From Pseudomonas serboccidentalis (GTDB taxonomy: Bacteria; Pseudomonadota; Gammaproteobacteria; Pseudomonadales; Pseudomonadaceae): a DNA stretch of 64,000 nt. Position 1 is the first letter of the stretch, and the number at the start of each line of letters is the position of its first letter. The stretch is taken from contig NZ_CP101655.1 of the NCBI RefSeq assembly GCF_028830055.1, positions 2,536,398-2,600,397 on the forward strand. The letters run 5' to 3'. Shown in pieces: positions 10,293-63,889 of the stretch. The notes beneath the pieces are model-generated. The model was not told where the DNA came from. It did not search any database and saw only the letters and a program-made list of their open reading frames with translations. The position numbers and the translations under genes were made by a program.

Positions 10293-10369
10293 GCGCCCGT
10301 AGCTCAGCTGGATAGAGCATCCGCCTTCTAAGCGGATGGTCGCAGGTTCGAGTCCTGCCGGGTGCGCCA
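10293..10369 (+). tRNA. tRNA-Arg (TCT)
   Basis: 77-nt cloverleaf with acceptor stem GCGCCCG/CGGGTGC, anticodon loop CTTCTAA giving anticodon TCT, T-arm GCAGG-TTCGAGT-CCTGC and an encoded CCA end. Confidence 0.95.
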
Positions 10370-10401
10370 TTAGGCAGCTTTGGCACAAGTAGCGCGATAT
10401 G

Positions 10402-10477
10402 GTGGGCGTAGCTCAGTTGGTAGAGCACGGGATTGTGACTCCCGTTGTCGTGGGTTCGATCCCCATCGTCCACCCCA
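10402..10477 (+). tRNA. tRNA-His (GTG), copy 1
   Basis: Acceptor stem GTGGGCG/CGTCCAC, anticodon loop ATTGTGA giving GTG, encoded CCA. The extra G-1 of histidine tRNA is present in the DNA at 10401, opposite discriminator C. Confidence 0.95.
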
Positions 10478-10484
10478 TATTTCG

Positions 10485-10516
10485 AAAGGCGCCAGATGTA
10501 ACAGTCTGGCGCCTTT
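10485..10516 (+). terminator. Hairpin after tRNA-His copy 1
   Basis: Arms AAAGGCGCCAGA and TCTGGCGCCTTT with an 8-base loop. The weak T-run (TTTGCTTT) suggests a processing or partial terminator inside the tRNA operon. Confidence 0.7.
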
Positions 10517-10534
10517 GCTTTAAAAGCTTCATCT

Positions 10535-10619
10535 GCGGATGTGGTGGAATTGGTAGACACACTGGATTTAGGTTCCAGCGCCGCGAGGCGTAAGAGTTCG
10601 AGTCTCTTCATCCGCACCA
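10535..10619 (+). tRNA. tRNA-Leu (TAG)
   Basis: 85-nt class II tRNA with a long variable arm, acceptor GCGGATG/CATCCGC, anticodon loop TTTAGGT giving TAG, and encoded CCA. Confidence 0.95.
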
Positions 10620-10695
10620 ATTAAAGCTTCATTCATGCCGCAGGCCGGATGAAGTTCAGCAAAGAAGTTGAATGGCTTTTTTGTGATGCAATATG

Positions 10696-10771
10696 GTGGG
10701 CGTAGCTCAGTTGGTAGAGCACGGGATTGTGACTCCCGTTGTCGTGGGTTCGATCCCCATCGTCCACCCCA
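10696..10771 (+). tRNA. tRNA-His (GTG), copy 2
   Basis: Identical to the first tRNA-His, again with G-1 encoded at 10695. The duplication includes the downstream hairpin. Confidence 0.95.
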
Positions 10772-47808: not shown

Positions 47809-47876
47809 CCGCGCCATCGAATTTGCAGCACCCAAAGACTTCGTTAGCCTGAAGCCATAAGCCCGAAAAACGGGCA

Positions 47877-47987
47877 AAAAAAGACCCGGCAAAAAGCCGG
47901 GTCAAAAACCGTGATTAGCCTGATGAGGAGATAGTCCAGAAGACCGACCTAAGGTCTCTGGTCCATCGACTGATCTCGCGACCAGTT
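47877..47987 (-). ncRNA. prrF: PrrF-family iron-responsive small RNA
   Basis: About 111 nt. Starts AACTGGTCGCGAGATCAG, contains the conserved target-pairing core TATCTCCTCATCAGGCTAAT, and ends in a terminator hairpin GACCCGGC-TTTTT-GCCGGGTC plus T-run. PrrF RNAs are repressed by Fur with iron and, when iron is scarce, block translation of iron-using proteins such as superoxide dismutase and aconitase. A sigma-70 promoter and a Fur box lie directly upstream. Confidence 0.92.
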
Positions 47988-47990
47988 GCT

Positions 47991-48009
47991 TGCAATAATA
48001 ATCATTATC
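47991..48009 (-). promoter_or_regulatory. Fur box of prrF
   Basis: TGCAATAATAATCATTATC matches the 19-base Fur consensus at 15 positions by eye, including an unbroken 10-base right half. It covers the -10 and spacer of the prrF promoter. Confidence 0.85.
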
Positions 48010-48022
48010 ATTTGCAAGTCAA
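47995..48022 (-). promoter_or_regulatory. prrF promoter
   Basis: Minus strand: TTGACT (48022-48017), 16-base spacer, TATTAT (48000-47995), then 7 bases to the A at 47987 taken as +1. Confidence 0.85.
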
Positions 48023-49248: not shown

Positions 49249-51198
49249 TTACACGGCTTCCAGTTCAACCAAAGCGCTGCCTTCGCCAACCATTTCGCCT
49301 TCCTGGCAATACATCGCTTTGATCACTCCCGCATGGGGCGCACGGATGCTGTGCTCCATCTTCATCGCCTCCAGCACCACCAGTTGCGCGCCGGCCTCGA
49401 CCGATTGCCCGGCCTCCACCAACACCCGCACGATACTGCCGTTCATGGGTGCCGTCAGACCGCCCTGATGACTGTGGCTGGCTTCGACGGCGCTGATTGG
49501 GTCGTAGGTCTCGATGCGGCGCAACTCGCCGTCCCATTGCAGGTACAACGAATTGCCCTGGCGAATGGCGCGCAAGGTACGACGCACGCCGTCGTGCTCG
49601 ACCCACAGTGCTTCGCCCGACAGCCTGGTGTTGCTGGCGGCACTCAAGGTCAACGCGCGATCCTGGCCTTCGCAGCTCAGATGCAAGGTGATTTCCGCCG
49701 GCAAACCTGCGCGCAAACCACTGTTCAACGCCCACGGCGAGCCCAAATCGTCCGCCCGCACCGCGCCCGGCAAACTCTGCGCGAAAGCCTGCGCTGCTGC
49801 ATGCCAGAACCCATCGCTCAGCTCACCCGGAGCCGGCAGCAGTTGTTCCTGATAGCGCGGAATAAACCCGGTATCCAGTTCCGCAGCGGCAAAGGCCGGA
49901 TGCGCAATGATCCGCCGCAGGAAGTTGATGTTGGTCTTCAAACCGCCAATGGCGAACTCATCGAGCATGCTCAACAGTCGCAGACGCGCCTGCTCGCGAT
50001 CCTCGCCCCAGGCAATCAGCTTGCCGAGCATCGGGTCGTAGAACGGCGAAATCTCGTCGCCTTCCTCAACCCCGCTATCCACCCGGCGCCCCGGACCGGC
50101 AGCCGACTCACGATACAGCTGCAGACGCCCGGTCGCGGGCAGGAAGTCATTCGACGGGTCTTCGGCATACAGCCGAACTTCGATCGCGTGCCCGTTGAGC
50201 GGCACCTGATCCTGTGTGATGGGCAACGCTTCACCGCGCGCCACACGAATCTGCCACGCGACCAGATCGAGGCCGGTGATTGCTTCGGTGACCGGGTGCT
50301 CGACCTGCAAACGGGTGTTCATTTCCATGAAGAAGAATTCGCCGCGCGCATCCAGCAGAAACTCCACGGTGCCGGCGCCGACGTAACCGATCGCCTGCGC
50401 CGAACGCACCGCCGCTTCACCCATGGCGCGGCGCAGTTCCGGGGGCAGGCCTGGCGCCGGGGCTTCTTCGACGACTTTCTGGTGGCGACGCTGGATCGAG
50501 CAATCCCGTTCGTTCAGGTACAGGCAGTTGCCGTGCTGGTCGGCGAACACCTGGATTTCCACGTGACGCGGCTTGAGCAGGTATTTCTCCACCAGCATCC
50601 GCGAATCGCCGAACGACGACTGCGCTTCGCGCTGGGCCGAGGCCAGGGCTTCGGCCAGTTGGCTGACGTCCTCGACCACTTTCATGCCTTTGCCGCCGCC
50701 ACCCGCCGTGGCCTTGAGCAGCACCGGGTAGCCAATGCGTTCACAGGCATCGCGGAAGGTGTCCAGATCCTGCGCCTCGCCGTGATAGCCCGGCACCAGC
50801 GGCACGCCAGCGGTTTCCATCAAGGCCTTGGCCGCAGACTTGCTGCCCATGGCGTCGATGGCCGAAGCGGGTGGGCCGAGGAAGATCAACCCGGCTTGTT
50901 CAATGGCGCGAGCGAATCCGGCGTTCTCCGACAGAAAGCCATAACCCGGGTGAATTGCCTGTGCGCCGCTGGCCTTGGCCGCCGCGATCAGTTTGTCGAT
51001 CTGCAGATAGCTGTCGGCGGCTTTGCTGCCACCCAGGTCGACGCGGATGTCGGCTTCGCGGCTGTGGCGCGCTTCGCGGTCGGTGGCGCTGTGTACGGCG
51101 ACGGTGGTCAGGCCCAGCGCCTTGGCGGTGCGCATGACCCGGCAAGCGATTTCGCCACGGTTGGCCACCAGCAGGGTGGTGAGAACAGGTGCGCTCAT
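49249..51198 (-). CDS. liuD: Methylcrotonyl-CoA carboxylase, biotin-carrying alpha subunit
   Basis: A 649-residue biotin-dependent carboxylase subunit: biotin carboxylase domain (VANRGEIACRVMRTAKALGL, GGGGKGMKVV, EMNTRLQVEHPVTE) and C-terminal biotinyl domain with EAMKMEHS. With LiuB it carboxylates 3-methylcrotonyl-CoA in leucine breakdown. Its ATG shares a base with the liuC stop (TGATG), implying coupled translation. Confidence 0.94.
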   Translation of the reverse strand: MSAPVLTTLLVANRGEIACRVMRTAKALGLTTVAVHSATDREARHSREADIRVDLGGSKAADSYLQIDKLIAAAKASGAQAIHPGYGFLSENAGFARAIEQAGLIFLGPPASAIDAMGSKSAAKALMETAGVPLVPGYHGEAQDLDTFRDACERIGYPVLLKATAGGGGKGMKVVEDVSQLAEALASAQREAQSSFGDSRMLVEKYLLKPRHVEIQVFADQHGNCLYLNERDCSIQRRHQKVVEEAPAPGLPPELRRAMGEAAVRSAQAIGYVGAGTVEFLLDARGEFFFMEMNTRLQVEHPVTEAITGLDLVAWQIRVARGEALPITQDQVPLNGHAIEVRLYAEDPSNDFLPATGRLQLYRESAAGPGRRVDSGVEEGDEISPFYDPMLGKLIAWGEDREQARLRLLSMLDEFAIGGLKTNINFLRRIIAHPAFAAAELDTGFIPRYQEQLLPAPGELSDGFWHAAAQAFAQSLPGAVRADDLGSPWALNSGLRAGLPAEITLHLSCEGQDRALTLSAASNTRLSGEALWVEHDGVRRTLRAIRQGNSLYLQWDGELRRIETYDPISAVEASHSHQGGLTAPMNGSIVRVLVEAGQSVEAGAQLVVLEAMKMEHSIRAPHAGVIKAMYCQEGEMVGEGSALVELEAV

Positions 51199-52013
51199 CA
51201 ACGCGGCTCCTTGGGGGTGGTTGCGGCTTGCCAGCTCGGCGCACGTTTTTGCAGGAACGCGCGCAAGCCTTCCTGGCCTTCAGGGCTGACGCGGATGCGC
51301 GCGATGGCGTTTTCGGTGTAGCGGCGCAAGGCCGGGGTCAGCGCGCCGTTGCCGACTTCGCGCAGCAGATCTTTACTGGCGCGCATCGCGGCGGGGCTGT
51401 TGAGCAGCAGGTTGTCGATCCATTGCTCGACGGCTTGATCAAGCTCGACGGCCGGATAGCTCTCGGACAACAAGCCGATTTCCCGCGCCCGCTGGCCACC
51501 GAAACGTTCGGCGGTCAGCGCGTAACGACGGGCGGCGCGTTCGCCGATGGCCTGCACCACGAACGGACTGATCACCGCTGGCGCCAGGCCGATGCGTACC
51601 TCCGACAAGCAGAACTGCGCATCATCGGTGCCAATCGCCATGTCGCAGCAACTGATCAGCCCAAGCGCGCCGCCGAACGCCGCACCTTGCACCACGGCCA
51701 GGGTCGGGATTTTCAGCTTGGCGAGGTTGTACATCAGCTCCGCCAGTTCGCGGGCGTCGTCCAGATTGGTGTGGTAATCGAGTTCGGCCGATTGCTGCAT
51801 CCACGCCAGATCGGCGCCGGCGCTGAAGTGTTTGCCACGTCCGCGCACCAACAGAAAACGCAGGCTGGCGTCGCTGGCAACCTTGTCCAGCGCCAGAATC
51901 AGCTCGCGGATCATCTCGGCGTTGAACGCGTTGTTCTTTTCTGCACGGTTGAGCCACAGCGTGGCGAAACCCCGTGGGTCGCTCTGCAGTTCGAGGGTGT
52001 TGAAGTCGCTCAT
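51198..52013 (-). CDS. liuC: 3-methylglutaconyl-CoA hydratase
   Basis: A 271-residue enoyl-CoA hydratase family enzyme (HFSAGADLAWMQQSAELDYH, QGAAFGGALGLISCCDMAIG). It hydrates 3-methylglutaconyl-CoA to HMG-CoA in leucine degradation. Third gene of liuABCD; 13 bases separate it from liuB. Confidence 0.92.
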   Translation of the reverse strand: MSDFNTLELQSDPRGFATLWLNRAEKNNAFNAEMIRELILALDKVASDASLRFLLVRGRGKHFSAGADLAWMQQSAELDYHTNLDDARELAELMYNLAKLKIPTLAVVQGAAFGGALGLISCCDMAIGTDDAQFCLSEVRIGLAPAVISPFVVQAIGERAARRYALTAERFGGQRAREIGLLSESYPAVELDQAVEQWIDNLLLNSPAAMRASKDLLREVGNGALTPALRRYTENAIARIRVSPEGQEGLRAFLQKRAPSWQAATTPKEPR

Positions 52014-52026
52014 GAGATTCTCCCGA

Positions 52027-53631
<1,605 letters not shown>

Positions 53632-53645
53632 GGGCTACTCCGTAG

Positions 53646-53731
53646 CAGCTTGAAGTTTCAAGCTACAAGCTGCAAGTTGAGGCAAGAGCGCATGTCTCTT
53701 GCCGCTTGAGGCTCGCAGCTTGCCGCTGACG
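53646..53731. repeat. AAGCTTGAAG-type interspersed repeat
   Basis: Imperfect inverted repeat built from short AAGCTGCAAG/CTTGCAGCTT-like words (GCAGCTTGAAGTTTCAAGCT ... GCTCGCAGCTTGCCGC). This A/T-richer family differs from the REP units; it fills the liuA-liuB gap. Confidence 0.65.
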
Positions 53732-53735
53732 AAAT

Positions 53736-54899
53736 TCATTTCGTTTCGTTGAACAGTTCGCGGCCGATCAGCATGCGTCGGATCTCACTGGTGCCAGCGC
53801 CGATTTCGTACAGCTTGGCGTCACGCAGCAGACGCCCGGCAGGGAATTCGTTGATGTAACCGTTGCCGCCGAGAATCTGGATCGCGTCGAGGGCCATTTG
53901 TGTGGCGCGTTCGGCGGTGTAGAGGATCACCCCGGCAGCGTCCTTGCGCGTGGTTTCGCCGCGCTCGCACGCCTGGGCCACCGCGTACAGGTAGGCACGG
54001 CTGGCGTTGAGCTGGGTGTACATGTCGGCGACTTTGCCTTGGATCAGCTGGAATTCGCCGATGCTCTGGCCGAACTGCTTGCGGTCGTGGATGTACGGCA
54101 CGATCAGGTCCATGCACGACTGCATGATCCCGGTCGGGCCGCCGGACAGCACGACGCGCTCGTAATCGAGGCCGCTCATCAGCACTTTGACGCCGCCGTT
54201 GAGCACGCCGAGGATGTTTTCTTCCGGCACTTCGACGTCATCGAAAAACAGCTCGCAGGTGTTGGAACCGCGCATGCCGAGCTTGTCGAACTTGTTGCTG
54301 CGGCTGAAGCCTTTCCAGTCGCGCTCGACAATGAAGGCGGTGATGCCGTGCGGGCCCTTTTCCAGATCGGTCTTGGCGTAGATCACGTAGGTGTTGGCGT
54401 CGGGGCCGTTGGTGATCCAGGTTTTGCTGCCGTTGAGCACGAAACGGTCGCCGCGTTTGTCGGCGCGCAGCTTCATCGAGACCACGTCGGAACCGGCGTT
54501 CGGCTCGCTCATCGCGAGGGCGCCGACGTGTTCGCCGCTGATCAGCTTCGGCAGGTATTGGCTTTTCTGCTCGTGGTTGCCATTGCGGTTGATCTGATTG
54601 ACGCAGAGGTTGGAATGCGCGCCGTAGGACAGCGCCACCGAGGCCGAACCGCGGCTGATTTCTTCCATCGCCACCACGTGCGCCAGGTAACCCAGGCCGG
54701 CGCCGCCGTACTCTTCCGGCACGGTGATGCCGAGCAGGCCCATGTCGCCGAATTTGCGCCACATGTCGGCAGGGAACAGGTTGTCGTGGTCGATCTGCGC
54801 GGCGCGTGGGGCGATCTGATCGGCGACAAAGGACTGAACCTGATCGCGCAGCATGTCGATGGTTTCACCGAGGGCGAAGTTCAGGGATGGATAGCTCAT
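53736..54899 (-). CDS. liuA: Isovaleryl-CoA dehydrogenase
   Basis: A 387-residue acyl-CoA dehydrogenase ([20 protein letters not shown] start; [40 protein letters not shown]). FAD-dependent oxidation of isovaleryl-CoA to 3-methylcrotonyl-CoA, the first liu step. The ATG at 54899 starts the conserved N-terminus. Two palindromic LiuR-type boxes lie upstream; it leads the liuABCD operon. Confidence 0.93.
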
Positions 54900-54955
54900 G
54901 GGGCACCTTTTAGCTTTTTTGTAGGGTGGGGAGGGCGGTCGAACAGCTCTCACCT

Positions 54956-54969
54956 TTACGTTAACGTAA
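54956..54969. promoter_or_regulatory. LiuR box 1 (TTACGTTAACGTAA)
   Basis: Perfect 14-base palindrome about 57 bases upstream of liuA. On the minus strand TTGACA lies at 54991-54986, so the box overlaps the -10 side. Confidence 0.72.
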
Positions 54970-54997
54970 GCCTGAGACGGAAGGCTGTCAATCACCC

Positions 54998-55013
54998 TTT
55001 ACGTTAACGTCAA
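54998..55013. promoter_or_regulatory. LiuR box 2 (TTTACGTTAACGTCAA)
   Basis: Second copy with palindromic core ACGTTAACGT, 42 bases from box 1, between liuA and the acyl-CoA synthetase gene; may serve both. Confidence 0.7.
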
Positions 55014-55059
55014 CTTGAGCGAGAGTAAGGGCAGTTCAAGATTGAAACGGAGCAGACCT

Positions 55060-55148
55060 TGTGGGAGCGAGCTTGCTCGCGAAAGCGTCAGATCAGTCAA
55101 CATGGATGTTGAATCCGCTGACCTCTTCGCGAGCAAGCTCGCCCACAG
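55060..55148. repeat. REPIN (GTGGGAGCGAGCTTGCTCGCG type), one arm deleted
   Basis: Left unit TGTGGGAGCGAGCTTGCTCG; right unit ends GAGCAAGCTCGCCCACAGG, lacking the usual TCC. Confidence 0.85.
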
Positions 55149-55193
55149 GGATTAAATCCGGCAAACCCACTAATAAAGACAATAGGGGTCGTC

Positions 55194-56888
55194 ATGGATC
55201 AACCCAGTGCAAACCCGCCACGCAGCTACACCCGTGGCGCCCAAGACAAAGCCTTACTGGCGATGACCATCGGGCAGAAGTTCGACCAGACAGTTGCGCA
55301 GTACCCGGACGGTGAGGCGCTGGTGGTGCGTCATCAGCAGTTGCGCTATTCCTGGCGGCAACTGGCCGACGCGGTGGATCTGCATGCCAGAGCCCTGTTG
55401 GCGCTGGGTTTGCAGGCGGGGGATCGGCTCGGTATCTGGGCGCCGAACTGTGCGCAGTGGTGCATCACGCAAATCGCCACGGCGAAAATCGGCGTGATTC
55501 TGGTCAACATCAACCCGGCCTACCGCAGCTCTGAACTGGAATACGTGCTCAAACAGTCCGGCTGTCAGTGGCTGGTGTGCGCCGGGGCATTCAAGTCCTC
55601 CAACTACCACGCCATGCTGCAGGGGCTGGTACCGGAACTGGCCGAGCAATCCATCGGCCAGTTGCGCTGTGAGCGTCTGCCGGAGTTGCGCGGGGTGATC
55701 AGCCTCGATGCACAGCCACCGTCAGGCTTCCTGCCGTGGTCGCAACTGGTCGATCTGGCCGCGGGTGTCTCACCCCAACAGTTGCACGAACGCAGCGACA
55801 GCCTGCACTTCGATCAGCCGGTGAACATTCAATACACCTCCGGCACCACCGGTTTCCCCAAGGGCGCGACCCTCAGTCACTACAACATTCTCAACAACGG
55901 TTACATGGTCGGTGAAAGCATCGGCCTGACCCCGAGCGACCGGCTGGTGATCCCGGTGCCGCTGTACCACTGCTTCGGCATGGTCATGGGCAACCTCGGC
56001 TGCATCACCCACGCCAGCACCATGATCTACCCCAGCGACGCCTTCGACCCGCTGCTGACCCTGCAAACCGTCGCCGAAGAACAGGCCACCGGCCTTTATG
56101 GTGTACCAACCATGTTCATCGCCATGCTCGATCAACCGCTACGTGCGGACTTCGACCTGTCGAGCCTGCGTACCGGGATCATGGCCGGCGCCACGTGCCC
56201 GATCGAGGTGATGCGCCGGGTCATCAGCGAGATGCACATGAGTGAAGTACAGATCGCCTACGGCATGACCGAAACCAGCCCGGTGTCGCTACAGACCGGG
56301 CCAAACGATGAACTGGAACTGCGCGTGACCACCGTCGGTCGCACTCAGCCGCAACTGGAAAGCAAGATCATCGACGAGGCCGGCAATCTGGTGCCGCGTG
56401 GCACCATCGGCGAGTTGTGCACCCGCGGTTACAGCGTGATGCTCGGTTACTGGAACAACCCGCAGGCCACCGCCGAAGCCATCGATGAGGCGGGCTGGAT
56501 GCACACCGGCGACCTGGCGAGCATGAACGATGAGGGTTACGTGAACATCGCCGGGCGTAACAAAGACATGATCATCCGCGGCGGCGAGAATGTTTACCCG
56601 CGTGAGCTGGAAGAGTTCTTCTTCACTCACCCGGCCGTGGCGGACGTGCAGGTGATCGGCATTCCGTGCTCGCGTTACGGCGAGGAGATTGTCGCCTGGA
56701 TCAAATTCCACCCCGGCCACAATGCCTCCGAGCTGGAACTGCAAACCTGGTGCAAGGAGCGCATCGCGCACTTCAAGACGCCGCGTTACTTCAAGTTCGT
56801 CGAAGAGTTTCCGATGACGGTGACGGGCAAGATTCAGAAGTTCCGGATGCGCGAGATCAGTATCGAAGAGCTTAAGGCGCTACATTGA
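55194..56888 (+). CDS. AMP-forming acyl-CoA synthetase
   Basis: A 564-residue ANL-superfamily ligase. Adenylate motifs: [11 protein letters not shown] at 214-224, [10 protein letters not shown], and [17 protein letters not shown]; the C-terminal lysine is in [10 protein letters not shown]. It activates a fatty or branched acid to CoA thioester. Divergent from liuA across two LiuR-type boxes, so a branched short-chain acid such as isovalerate or a monoterpenoid-derived acid is plausible. Confidence 0.9.
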
Positions 56889-56963
56889 AGATCAAAAGAT
56901 CGCAGCCTTCGGCAGCTCCTACAGGGGATCGGTGTAGGAGCTGCCGAAGGCTGCGATCTTTTA
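56888..56963. repeat. REPIN (GATCGCAGCCTTCGGCAGC type)
   Basis: Inverted pair starting at the stop codon of the acyl-CoA synthetase gene. Confidence 0.9.
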
Positions 56964-56980
56964 AAAACACAAATCACAGA

Positions 56981-57358
56981 AAGCACAAAGGGGAGCCGAA
57001 GCTCCCCTTTAATTTTGTCGTCGCGTGCTCTTTCTTATTATTGAGGGGCGGTCTGTTGTTGTTTTTGGCAACCGTGGCCCTTTACCGCTGTTTTTGGCGA
57101 CCCCCATCCGGGGTCAAGAGCAAACGTATTTTTTTGAGCGCTGATCTGCTTTCTCGCCAAGCGATCCAACCGATTCGGGAGCTACCTGAAGGTAGTTTTA
57201 TTGTTCTCTGCCCGGTTGCGGGTCACTCCTGAGAGCACCCTGAAAAGCACACCTTCTCCAAAAAAATCTGTTAGCTGCGTCTCTGCCGTGTTGTTTTTGT
57301 TATGTCAGAGTCGGTACGTCTTATTTTTATTGGTTTGCAGCTTTTTATTCTTGTTATG
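56981..57358 (-). ncRNA. crcY: CrcY-like Hfq/Crc-sequestering small RNA
   Basis: About 375 nt on the minus strand, from a sigma-54 promoter to a hairpin terminator (AAAGGGGAGC-TTCG-GCTCCCCTTT). It contains many A-rich CA motifs: AACAAGAATAAAAAG, AATAAAAATAAG, AACAAAAACAACA, AACAATAAAA, AAAAACAACAACAG and AATAATAAGAAAG. Such motifs bind Hfq with Crc and relieve catabolite repression. Position beside mvaB matches what is recalled for CrcY in P. putida. Replaces any protein gene in this 630-base gap. Confidence 0.88.
56987..57014 (-). terminator. CrcY terminator
   Basis: Ten-base-arm hairpin with a TTCG tetraloop on the RNA; followed on the minus strand by TTTGTGCTTT. Confidence 0.8.
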
Positions 57359-57369
57359 CCATAGAGATA

Positions 57370-57384
57370 GCAGAAGCCGTGCCA
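57370..57384 (-). promoter_or_regulatory. Sigma-54 promoter of crcY
   Basis: Minus strand TGGCACG-GCTT-CTGC, an almost perfect -24/-12 element (GG and GC exactly spaced), about 12 bases before the predicted +1. Confidence 0.88.
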
Positions 57385-57466
57385 ACTTTTTAAAAGCCTT
57401 GTAAATCAATGGCTTGAGTTTTTTGAAGGATTTTTCCTTCAGGGCAAACCAGACAATTTGTTTCCG

Positions 57467-57507
57467 TGTTACTCGTCTATGCCCACGTTTCGGACACAGC
57501 GGTAACA
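57467..57507 (-). promoter_or_regulatory. Candidate CbrB upstream activating site
   Basis: TGTTAC and GTAACA half-sites 29 bases apart, roughly 110-150 bases upstream of the crcY start, where an enhancer-binding protein such as CbrB would sit. Confidence 0.6.
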
Positions 57508-57516
57508 CCTTCGACC

Positions 57517-58416
57517 TCACTGTGCGTTACGGGCCTTGGCCACACGCGAACCGCTCGGGCGACCGAGCACCGCGCTGATCTGCTGACCCGCGGCAATCAA
57601 GGCGTCCAGGTCGATACCGGTCTCGATGCCCAGGCCGTTGAGCAGGTACACCACGTCCTCGGTCGCAACGTTACCGCTCGCGCCCTTGGCGTACGGGCAG
57701 CCGCCGAGGCCGGCGATAGAGCTGTCGAACACCGCGATGCCTTCCAGCAAGCTGGCATAGATGTTGGCCATGGCCTGGCCGTAGGTGTCGTGGAAGTGCC
57801 CGGCGAGTTTTTCCCGAGGCACCTGCGCCGACACCACTTCGAACAGCCGCCGGGTCGCGCCAGCGGTGCCGGTGCCGATGGTGTCACCGAGGGACACTTC
57901 ATAGCAGCCCATCGCATACAGCTCACGGGCGACCATCGCCACTTGCTCCGGGGCGACCGTGCCTTCGTACGGGCAGCCGAGCACGCAGGACACGTAACCG
58001 CGCACGGTAACGCCGTGCTGTTTCGCGGCTTCCATGATCGGTGCGAAGCGCGCCAGGCTTTCGCTGATCGAGCAATTGATGTTGCGCTGCGAGAACGCCT
58101 CGGACGCGGCGGCGAACACGGCGACTTCTTTCACGCCGGCGGCCAGCGCATCTTCAAACCCGCGCAGGTTCGGCGCCAGGGCGCCGTAGGTCACGCCGGG
58201 CTTGCGCTGGATCTGCGCGAACACCTCGGCCGAACCGGCCATCTGCGGCACCCATTTCGGTGAGACGAAACTGCCGACTTCGATGTAACTCAAACCAGCG
58301 GCGCTCAGCGCGTCGACCAGTTGCACCTTGTCAGCCACGCTGATCGGCTGGGCTTCGTTCTGCAGGCCATCGCGCGGGCCGACTTCGATCAGGCGAACAT
58401 GGGAGGGGAGGGACAT
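57517..58416 (-). CDS. mvaB: Hydroxymethylglutaryl-CoA lyase
   Basis: A 299-residue HMG-CoA lyase (also called LiuE): VRLIEVGPRDGLQNE, AGHFHDTYGQAMANI and the catalytic-loop signature GLGGCPYAKGASGN. It splits HMG-CoA to acetoacetate and acetyl-CoA, completing leucine breakdown. It follows liuR on the same strand across a REPIN; liuABCD lies beyond crcY and the acyl-CoA synthetase gene. Confidence 0.95.
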   Translation of the reverse strand: MSLPSHVRLIEVGPRDGLQNEAQPISVADKVQLVDALSAAGLSYIEVGSFVSPKWVPQMAGSAEVFAQIQRKPGVTYGALAPNLRGFEDALAAGVKEVAVFAAASEAFSQRNINCSISESLARFAPIMEAAKQHGVTVRGYVSCVLGCPYEGTVAPEQVAMVARELYAMGCYEVSLGDTIGTGTAGATRRLFEVVSAQVPREKLAGHFHDTYGQAMANIYASLLEGIAVFDSSIAGLGGCPYAKGASGNVATEDVVYLLNGLGIETGIDLDALIAAGQQISAVLGRPSGSRVAKARNAQ

Positions 58417-58560: not shown

Positions 58561-58962
58561 TTACTGAACCGGCTGCTGACTCTTGAGCGTCTGCTCCAGT
58601 GCCTGCACGCAGCGTTCTTCAGCGGTATCGAGTTCCAGTTTCATCTGTTCGATGTCGAGCAACTGTTGCTCCAGCTGTTCGCGGCGCTCGCTGATTTTCG
58701 CCAGCATGCTGTTGAGCTGTTTGGTGTTACCGCTGGACGGGTCGTAGAGTTCGATCAACTCGCGGCATTCGGCCAGCGAGAAACCGATGCGCTTGCCGCG
58801 CAGGATCAGCTTCAGGCTGACCTTGTCGCGCGGCGAGTAGATGCGTTCCTGGCCACGGCGCTCAGGGCTGAGCAGGCCTTGTTCTTCATAAAAACGGATC
58901 GCCCGGGTGGTGATATCCAGCTCGCGGGCGAGGTCGGAAATGCTGTAGGTCTGGCTGCTCAT
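58561..58962 (-). CDS. liuR: MerR-family regulator LiuR
   Basis: A 133-residue MerR protein: winged helix YSISDLARELDITTRAIRFY at 6-25, EEQGLLSPERRGQERIYSPR, and a C-terminal dimerisation coiled coil (about 85-125). No metal-binding cysteine pair, as in regulators of acyl-CoA catabolism. LiuR controls the liu genes in Pseudomonas. A palindrome like those before liuA lies 43 bases upstream. Confidence 0.92.
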   Translation of the reverse strand: MSSQTYSISDLARELDITTRAIRFYEEQGLLSPERRGQERIYSPRDKVSLKLILRGKRIGFSLAECRELIELYDPSSGNTKQLNSMLAKISERREQLEQQLLDIEQMKLELDTAEERCVQALEQTLKSQQPVQ

Positions 58963-59004
58963 GAAAGCGCTCGAAAAAGGTCTTGGCGCTAAGCTAATGG
59001 CGAG

Positions 59005-59020
59005 TTGACGTTTACGTCAA
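59005..59020. promoter_or_regulatory. LiuR box 3 (TTGACGTTTACGTCAA)
   Basis: Inverted repeat TTGACGT-TT-ACGTCAA upstream of liuR, related to boxes 1 and 2; suggests autoregulation. Confidence 0.7.
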
Positions 59021-59028
59021 GCAAGAAA

Positions 59029-59107
59029 AAGATCGCAGCCTTCGGCAGCTCCTACAGGAAAATGCATTCCAATTGTAGGAGCTGCCGAAGGCTGCGATCT
59101 TTTGATC
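59029..59107. repeat. REPIN (GATCGCAGCCTTCGGCAGC type)
   Basis: Inverted pair with extended AAAGATCGCAG/CTGCGATCTTT ends between liuR and the LysR gene. Confidence 0.9.
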
Positions 59108-59112
59108 TTTCC

Positions 59113-60048
59113 TCAAACCACCTGCTTATCGAGTTTCTTCTCCTGCGCCGCCACCTGCTGGCACAACTCGATGATCTGCTCGCGCATCCAGCGGTTGGCC
59201 GGGTCCTGATCGGTGCTTTCGTGCCAGTACAGATGAGTCTCCAGCGGCGGCACGTCGTTGACCGGCAGGTTGAACGCATGCAAGTCGTTACGCCGGGCAA
59301 AGCGCTCGGGCACCGTCATTACCATGTCGGTCTGCTGCATGACCTGGGACGCCATCAGGTAATGCTGTGAGCGCAGGGCGATCTTGCGCTGAATGCCCAT
59401 TTTGCCGAGGGCCAGATCGACATAACCCAGGCCGCTGCGGCGGCTGGAGATATGAATGTGGGTCAGTGACAGGTAATCGTCGAGGCTGAGTTTTTCCTTG
59501 CCCGCCAGCGGATGGCCCTTGCGCATCGCGCAGACGTAACGGTCTTCCATCAGCTTGACGTGGCGCACCTGCGGGTCGGTGTTGAGCGGCGCATCCACGG
59601 CGAAATCCAGGCGTCCGGCGGCCAGTTCCTTGGTGGTTTCGCGGCGTTTGGACAGGAAGCTCTCGATGATCACCGTCGGCGCCAGACGTCGCAAACGCTG
59701 GAACAGCGGCGGCAGAATCACCGCTTCAGTGAGGTCGGTCATGCTGATGCGGTAGGTCTTGACCGCCTGGGCCGGGTTGAAAATCCGGCTTTCCTGCACC
59801 GACACCCGCAGCAGCGACAACGCATTGCGCACCGGGCCGATGATGTTCTGCGCCATCGGCGTCGGCACCATGCCCTGGGCGGTGCGCACGAACAGCGGAT
59901 CGTTGAAGGTCTCACGCAACCGCGCCAACGCGTTGGACACCGCCGGCTGGGTGATGCCGACAATCTGCCCGGCGCGGGTCAGGTTGGCTTCGGTGTAGAT
60001 CGCGTCGAAGACAATGAAAAGGTTGAGGTCGACCTTGCTCAGGTTCAT
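59113..60048 (-). CDS. LysR-family regulator (NodD/LeuO-like)
   Basis: A 311-residue LysR protein with the NodD/LeuO-type start MNLSKVDLNLFIVFDAIYTE, helix-turn-helix NLTRAGQIVGITQPAVSNAL and FNDPLFVRTAQGMVPT. The effector domain runs from about 90. Divergent from an acyl-CoA dehydrogenase gene (171-base gap), its likely target. Confidence 0.9.
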   Translation of the reverse strand: MNLSKVDLNLFIVFDAIYTEANLTRAGQIVGITQPAVSNALARLRETFNDPLFVRTAQGMVPTPMAQNIIGPVRNALSLLRVSVQESRIFNPAQAVKTYRISMTDLTEAVILPPLFQRLRRLAPTVIIESFLSKRRETTKELAAGRLDFAVDAPLNTDPQVRHVKLMEDRYVCAMRKGHPLAGKEKLSLDDYLSLTHIHISSRRSGLGYVDLALGKMGIQRKIALRSQHYLMASQVMQQTDMVMTVPERFARRNDLHAFNLPVNDVPPLETHLYWHESTDQDPANRWMREQIIELCQQVAAQEKKLDKQVV

Positions 60049-62914: not shown

Positions 62915-62981
62915 GCCGGCACCGAATCAAGCCAAGGGGATTGCCGGGGAGATTAAGTCAGACGCATGACCAAAACATGAC

Positions 62982-63067
62982 AGATCAAAAGATCGCAGCC
63001 TTCGGCAGCTCCTACATTGGAATGCGATCCCCTGTAGGAGCTGCCGAAGGCTGCGATCTTTTGATCT
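62982..63067. repeat. REPIN (GATCGCAGCCTTCGGCAGC type)
   Basis: Inverted pair with AGATCAAAAG/CTTTTGATCT outer arms between the OmpA-fusion and xthA genes. Confidence 0.9.
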
Positions 63068-63076
63068 TGGTGGATA

Positions 63077-63889
63077 TCAGGCCAGTTCCAGCCAGATCGG
63101 CGCGTGATCCGACGGCTTCTCCATCCCGCGCAGTTCATAGTCCACGCCCGCATCCTTCACTCGCGGCAACAGGCCATGGGAGGCGAGGATCACGTCGATC
63201 CGCAGCCCACGTTTCGGCTCATCTTCAAAGCCACGGCTGCGGTAGTCGAACCAGCTGAACATGTCGCTCACGTCCGGGTTCAGGTGGCGGAAGCTGTCGG
63301 TCAGGCCCCAGTTCTTCAGGCGGGCCATCCACTCGCGCTCCTCCGGCAGGAAGCTGCATTTACCGGTTTTCAGCCAGCGCTTCATGTTGTCCGGGCCGAT
63401 GCCGATGTCGCGGTCTTCCGGGGAAATGTTCACATCGCCCATCACTACCAGCGGCTGTTCGTTGTGGAACTGGCTTTCCAGCAGGGTTTGCAGGTCGCTG
63501 TAAAAGCGTTGCTTGGCCGGGAACTTGGTCGGATGGTCGCGGCTTTCGCCCTGCGGGAAGTAGCCGTTCATGATGGTCACCGGCACGCCATTGGCGTCGG
63601 CGAAGGTGCCCCAGATGAAGCGGCGCTGGGCGTCTTCTTCATCGGTGGCGAAGCCTTTGTGAACGGCGATCGGCTCGTTGCGCGAGAGCAGGGCGACGCC
63701 GTAATGGCCTTTCTGGCCGTGGAAATAAACGTGATAGCCCAGCGCCCGCACTTCTTCCAGCGGGAACTGGTCGTCGTGGACCTTGGTTTCCTGCAGGCCG
63801 ATCACGTCCGGCTGATGCTTTTCGATCAGCGCTGCCAGCTGATGCGGACGGGCGCGCAGTCCGTTGATGTTGAAGGAAACGATCTTCAT
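63077..63889 (-). CDS. xthA: Exodeoxyribonuclease III
   Basis: A 270-residue Mg-dependent AP endonuclease/3' exonuclease in base-excision repair: [33 protein letters not shown] (metal Glu), [27 protein letters not shown] and [10 protein letters not shown] (catalytic His). The ATG at 63889 starts the conserved MKIVSFN; longer in-frame starts add an unrelated tail. It is convergent with nothing and ends 10 bases from a REPIN. Confidence 0.95.

Follow-up and report, generated by a model that had tools for sequence, protein, structure and literature searches.

The 64-kb stretch of DNA analysed here (the window) almost certainly encodes crcY, a CbrB/sigma-54-driven decoy of the CrcZ family for Hfq-Crc, and one of two such RNAs in its genome. 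CrcY is a known Pseudomonas small RNA that sequesters the proteins enforcing carbon-source preference. Neither crcY nor its site behind mvaB (liuE) is a discovery, both having already been described in P. putida. The coordinates of the gene, its control elements and its neighbours are collected in Table 1.

Table 1. Features of the crcY locus, in window coordinates.
Feature	Position	Strand	Basis or remark
crcY small RNA	56980..57357	-	5' end ~57357 and 3' end ~56980, both inferred from Rfam match, sigma-54 spacing and terminator position
crcY terminator hairpin	56986..57011	-	11 pairs, loop of 4, T-rich tail
A-rich Hfq/Crc motif clusters 1 and 2	57342-57355, 57321-57331	-	unpaired except one base (predicted fold)
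A-rich motif cluster 3	57291..57301	-	motif scan, predicted fold
A-rich motif cluster 4	57198..57205	-	motif scan, predicted fold
A-rich motif cluster 5	57056..57066	-	motif scan, predicted fold
A-rich motif cluster 6	57032..57042	-	motif scan, predicted fold
sigma-54 promoter TGGCACG-N4-CTGC (TGGCACGGCTTCTGC)	57370..57384	-	GG-N10-GC spacing
IHF consensus site	57404..57416	+	between CbrB sites and promoter
CbrB half-site GTAACA, probably R' of P. putida crcY	57467..57472	-	sequence match
CbrB half-site TGTTAC (F1)	57502..57507	-	sequence match
mvaB / liuE, hydroxymethylglutaryl-CoA lyase	57517-58416	-	NCBIfam NF004283, 497 bits, cut-off 246; directly upstream of crcY
liuR, MerR-family regulator	58561-58962	-	first gene of liuR-liuE-crcY stretch
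LiuR-type palindrome TTGACGTAAACGTCAA	59005..59020		starts 58 bases before liuR; candidate operator
fatty acid CoA ligase gene	55194-56888	+	convergent; between crcY and liuA
LiuR-type palindrome before liuA	54998..55013		exact to TTKACGTWWACGTMAA
second LiuR-type palindrome before liuA	54955-54970		one mismatch
liuA, liuB, liuC, liuD (leucine/isovalerate catabolism)	49249-54899	-	gene order and translations

A preliminary description of this DNA had named a CrcZ/CrcY-type small RNA in a gap of about 630 bases without a protein gene. The gap measures 628 bases between the CoA ligase gene and mvaB and contains no convincing protein gene. The CrcZ covariance model (Rfam RF01675), comparison with which had been suggested as a check, matched positions 57357-56955 of the minus strand over its entire length (1-398 of 398), scoring 364.4 bits (cut-off 95). 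The name is thus borne out by this full-length match and by the grouping of the RNA with mvaB-linked crcY copies in a tree (see below). The final ~25 bases of the Rfam match extend past the terminator into a REP-like inverted repeat. The hairpin terminator noted previously was seen at 57011-56986 with its T-rich tail, and because of its position the 3' end of the RNA is probably near 56980. REP-like inverted repeats (GTAGGAGCTGCCGAAGGCTGCGATC type) occur in the window at 56885-56965, where they overlap the 3' part of the Rfam match, and again near 59020-59110 and near 62953-63153.

Six or more A-rich Hfq/Crc motifs had been claimed for this RNA. It contains 12 AANAANAA motifs, which overlap and form 6 clusters, and none of 2000 dinucleotide shuffles (means of 1.6 motifs and 1.2 clusters) reached either number. 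The fold predicted for 56980-57357 has a z of -3.6, with none of 100 shuffles equally stable, and leaves 10 of the 12 motifs wholly unpaired and the other 2 with one paired base. Among the liu genes, liuR and liuC each contain a single occurrence of this motif, and the others contain none.

The control region was compared across 44 mvaB-linked copies of the RNA, 20 of them from named records and 24 from genus genomes, the latter being the mvaB-linked ones of the 56 loci with the best scores. The sigma-54 promoter of the preliminary description has the correct spacing and is kept in 43 of the 44. On sequence alone the match is at chance level, with 2 matches (at most one mismatch) in the 64-kb window vs 3.1 expected; it is the position of the element, together with its conservation across the mvaB-linked copies, that makes it convincing. 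The upstream TGTTAC/GTAACA pair was likewise located, and both half-sites are present in all 44 copies, with a start-to-start distance of 34-36 bases in 43 of them and of 24 bases in L038. Searching for exact copies of the spaced CbrB sites with the window's own letters gives a unique hit by construction. The IHF consensus is a further element, absent from the earlier list, and its strict pattern recurs in 37 of the 44 copies. Prominent blocks in the alignment of these copies are GTGTTACC, GTAACAcGGAAACA and TTGGCACG..CTGCTAT. Exactly six motif clusters were counted in 42 of the mvaB-linked copies (one of the others has five, one has seven) and in 32/32 cbrB-linked copies.

Published work on P. 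putida crcY suggests names for these half-sites. There, CbrB enrichment by ChIP and IHF dependence have been reported, F1 (TGTTAC) is essential and matters most, and replacing R1 or an extra perfect R' (GTAACA, centred at -112) was without effect, according to the parts of that study used here (PMC6296734). Since the GTAACA of the window is centred at about -112 relative to the crcY start, as R' is in P. putida, the pair is probably F1 plus R'. The probable R' is kept in 44/44 copies, a retention that a dispensable site would not predict. With fixed GG and GC and at most three mismatches, no sigma-54-like sites were found before liuR (58930-59400) or before liuA (54880-55300).

Orthology was assessed with a tree of 76 copies, comprising the 20 named ones and 56 taken from the 237 matches across 119 genomes. 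One branch, with a support of 1.0, parts the 44 mvaB-linked from the 32 cbrB-linked copies without exception. The crcY of the window is 63% identical to the crcZ of its own genome; its identity averages 94% with the 23 other mvaB-linked copies from genus genomes and 82% with the 20 from named records. The host genome has two crc RNA copies, the second of which lies behind cbrA and cbrB and before pcnB, genes recognised from their translations; these neighbours identify the second copy as crcZ. The window copy is crcY, since it groups with the mvaB-linked copies and crcZ is already accounted for at cbrB. The parts, conservation, family membership and orthology of crcY are established here. Every one of the 119 sampled genus genomes, the host included, has at least one match: one in 16, two in 89, three in 13 and four in a single genome, G082, in which two of the pieces are below the cut-off.

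Within the host genome, crcY and crcZ are 33.8 kb apart in opposite orientation (G000 C1:2593352-2627561, from window position 56955 to ~27 kb past the window end). By comparison, 30 other genomes carry exactly two copies on a single contig, and their coordinates place these at least 1.05 Mb from each other. The close spacing in the host is likely due to a chromosomal rearrangement. Tandem pairs of crc RNAs behind mvaB were seen in two genomes (G051 C1:6292288-6293200 and G086 C9:79362-80411).

The preliminary description had also linked the RNA to leucine catabolism by its place. The name liuR comes from the position of the gene in the liu cluster, its family matches being to general MerR models only and below cut-offs; liuC passes NCBIfam NF004227, and liuA, liuB and liuD, which match general families below cut-off, are named by place. 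Elsewhere in the window are a PrrF small RNA (47875-48022, minus strand; 159.9 bits, cut-off 90) and four consecutive tRNA matches (10293-10768, plus strand). For a survey of gene order, the 237 crc matches were joined with the best mvaB and the best liuB match of each of the 119 genomes. In 96 of them, mvaB is followed on its own strand by a crc RNA at a distance of 144-215 bp. liuB shares the contig in 82 of the 96: in 72 genomes it is on the same strand, downstream and within 30 kb, in 10 it is farther off than 30 kb, to one side or the other, and in none of the 82 is it within 30 kb upstream; for the remaining 14, liuB was either on a different contig or not found, G076 having no liuB match. 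Of the 23 genomes that have no mvaB-linked copy, 22 show the classical order, with liuB preceding mvaB by 2.7-4.2 kb on a shared strand, and the 23rd, G082, is too fragmented for its order to be judged. Named records gave the same picture. Among the 33 loci examined (L032-L064, of 80 fetched), those with crcY have the order liuR>liuE>crcY> in 20/20, and those that lack it have liuE directly after liuD in 13/13. crcY thus occurs where liuE has departed from the end of liuABCDE and sits behind liuR. Two of the loci, L057 and L061 (P. alliivorans and P. asturiensis), read liuR-liuE-crcY-liuABCD; for ten others (L040-L048, L059), mostly from the P. putida group, the ~10 kb flanking each side contain no liuABCD. 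As gene order, the link to leucine catabolism stands in 96 of 119 genomes; a functional link is putative. A limited literature search met no published description of the liuE move beside crcY or of a tie between LiuR and crcY.

The liuR-liuE-crcY stretch starts at a palindrome of the TTGACGTAAACGTCAA type, a candidate LiuR operator. A degenerate pattern, TTKACGTWWACGTMAA, was built from the window sites and known LiuR motifs. It has three exact matches in the 6-Mb host genome, before liuR, before liuA, and between etfB and ETF-QO (both recognised from translations), and a reversed control pattern has none. Over the 119 genomes there are 234 matches vs 3 for the reversed pattern. Among the matches listed, which span 35 genomes, each with a match by construction and with G082 excluded, 26 of 29 crcY genomes have the site 450-592 bp before liuE, the exceptions being G003, G101 and G039. 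The palindrome is exact before liuR in 19 of the 20 named crcY loci (L059 has two mismatches). It also precedes liuR in 11 of the 13 named loci that lack crcY and is, for this reason, independent of crcY.

We infer that control by CbrB, IHF and RpoN and binding of Hfq/Crc hold in the present strain too. When the preferred carbon source is exhausted, phosphorylated CbrB would occupy the half-sites just behind mvaB, IHF would bend the DNA between these sites and the promoter, and sigma-54 polymerase would initiate at ~57357. The resulting RNA of ~375 nt would offer its six A-rich clusters, single-stranded in the predicted fold, to Hfq with Crc. The Hfq/Crc complex would then be released from its mRNA targets, making less preferred substrates usable.

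It is very improbable that the stretch is instead a small-protein gene or a decayed, inactive copy. Open reading frames of 115 aa (56885-57232, plus strand), 67 aa (57201-57404, plus strand) and 71 aa (57305-57520, minus strand) exist on paper, but the 71-aa frame crosses the promoter region and the conserved upstream blocks are regulatory elements; all six motif clusters are intact as well. A different proposal would add to the CbrB/sigma-54 reading rather than replace it. Since a LiuR-type site stands at the head of the liuR-liuE stretch and crcY at its end, with no terminator-like site in between, leucine could raise processed CrcY without CbrAB: a LiuR-controlled liuR-liuE transcript would run into crcY and be processed, so that crcY would be wired both to CbrAB/sigma-54 (carbon starvation) and to LiuR-gated read-through (leucine). 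We hold this second input to be possible but doubtful. Consistent with it, the gene order is constant in the 20 named crcY loci, the exact palindrome precedes liuR in 19 of them and is one of only three in the host genome, and the minus strand between 59100 and 56800 has no terminator-like site besides crcY's own. On the other hand, the palindrome stands before liuR in the 11 loci named above that lack crcY and so is not there for crcY, the exact form is missing in 8 of 119 genomes, three of which have crcY (G030, G050 and G076), and the motif is a putative LiuR operator. Experimental reports, as far as the portions used here go, point both ways. In P. putida, where crcY also sits behind mvaB, a PP3539-mvaB-crcY co-transcript and processed forms of CrcZ and CrcY have been described, but the promoters of the long transcripts are termed constitutive (PMC6292655). 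In P. ogarae F113, a cbrB mutant still expresses crcY, for which the authors propose another regulator, such as ANR, and report an ANR box at crcY (PMC12552145); the box TTGAT-N4-ATCAA has no exact match within the 64-kb window.

The gene order may also have no regulatory meaning, a single rearrangement having joined liuE and crcY, which were never separated afterwards. We consider such a founder effect fairly probable, and it accounts for the order at least as well as a second input. The change of order and the presence of crcY coincide without exception in the judgeable genomes, which is what one ancestral event would produce. Against it, liuR-liuE-crcY is intact even where liuABCD is elsewhere (liuB more than 30 kb away in 10 of 96 genomes, and on another contig or not found in 14 of 96), a weak point, as operons cohere anyway. 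If, however, the LiuR-gated read-through were real, the liuE move would have brought a global catabolite-repression decoy under the control of a pathway-specific regulator, leucine itself would free the mRNAs of its pathway, and others, from Hfq/Crc, and CrcY and CrcZ would have different jobs. The two RNAs are often regarded as redundant decoys. Gene order offers a testable difference between them: CrcZ is boosted by cbrB read-through, as reported, and CrcY would, hypothetically, be boosted by liuR-liuE read-through, which may be leucine-responsive. A modelling proposal cited in a review holds that the co-existence of CrcY and CrcZ reflects different functions (PMC8871633, in the part used here).

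With crcY read as a CbrB/sigma-54-driven decoy, the RNA of the window can be set beside its known relatives. CrcZ (Rfam RF01675) shares the covariance model and the six clusters, but lies behind cbrB, and the host's own crcZ is 63% identical to the RNA of the window. CrcX of P. syringae is a family member under CbrB, as summarised in the available part of the same review (PMC8871633); the only two copies in the host genome are crcY and crcZ. For Azotobacter vinelandii, CrcZ-Hfq-Crc complexes have been shown, in the portion of the work seen here. The CrcY of that species resembles the one in the window in having CbrB sites and an RpoN-dependent promoter, but differs in lying between the hypothetical-protein genes Avin04820 and Avin04790, in having five motifs and, in the part of the paper drawn on, in not being described behind mvaB (PMC5429807). 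A further likeness is to CrcY of P. putida KT2440 (PP3540b), which, in the part of PMC6296734 used, is also behind mvaB and has a sigma-54 promoter, half-sites of the F1 and R' type and an IHF site. The P. putida-group copies examined have six motif clusters, as does the crcY of the window, and the two differ in their surroundings: the ten loci mostly of the P. putida group (L040-L048, L059) have no liuABCD within ~10 kb, whereas in the window liuABCD comes downstream of crcY, with the convergent CoA ligase gene in between.
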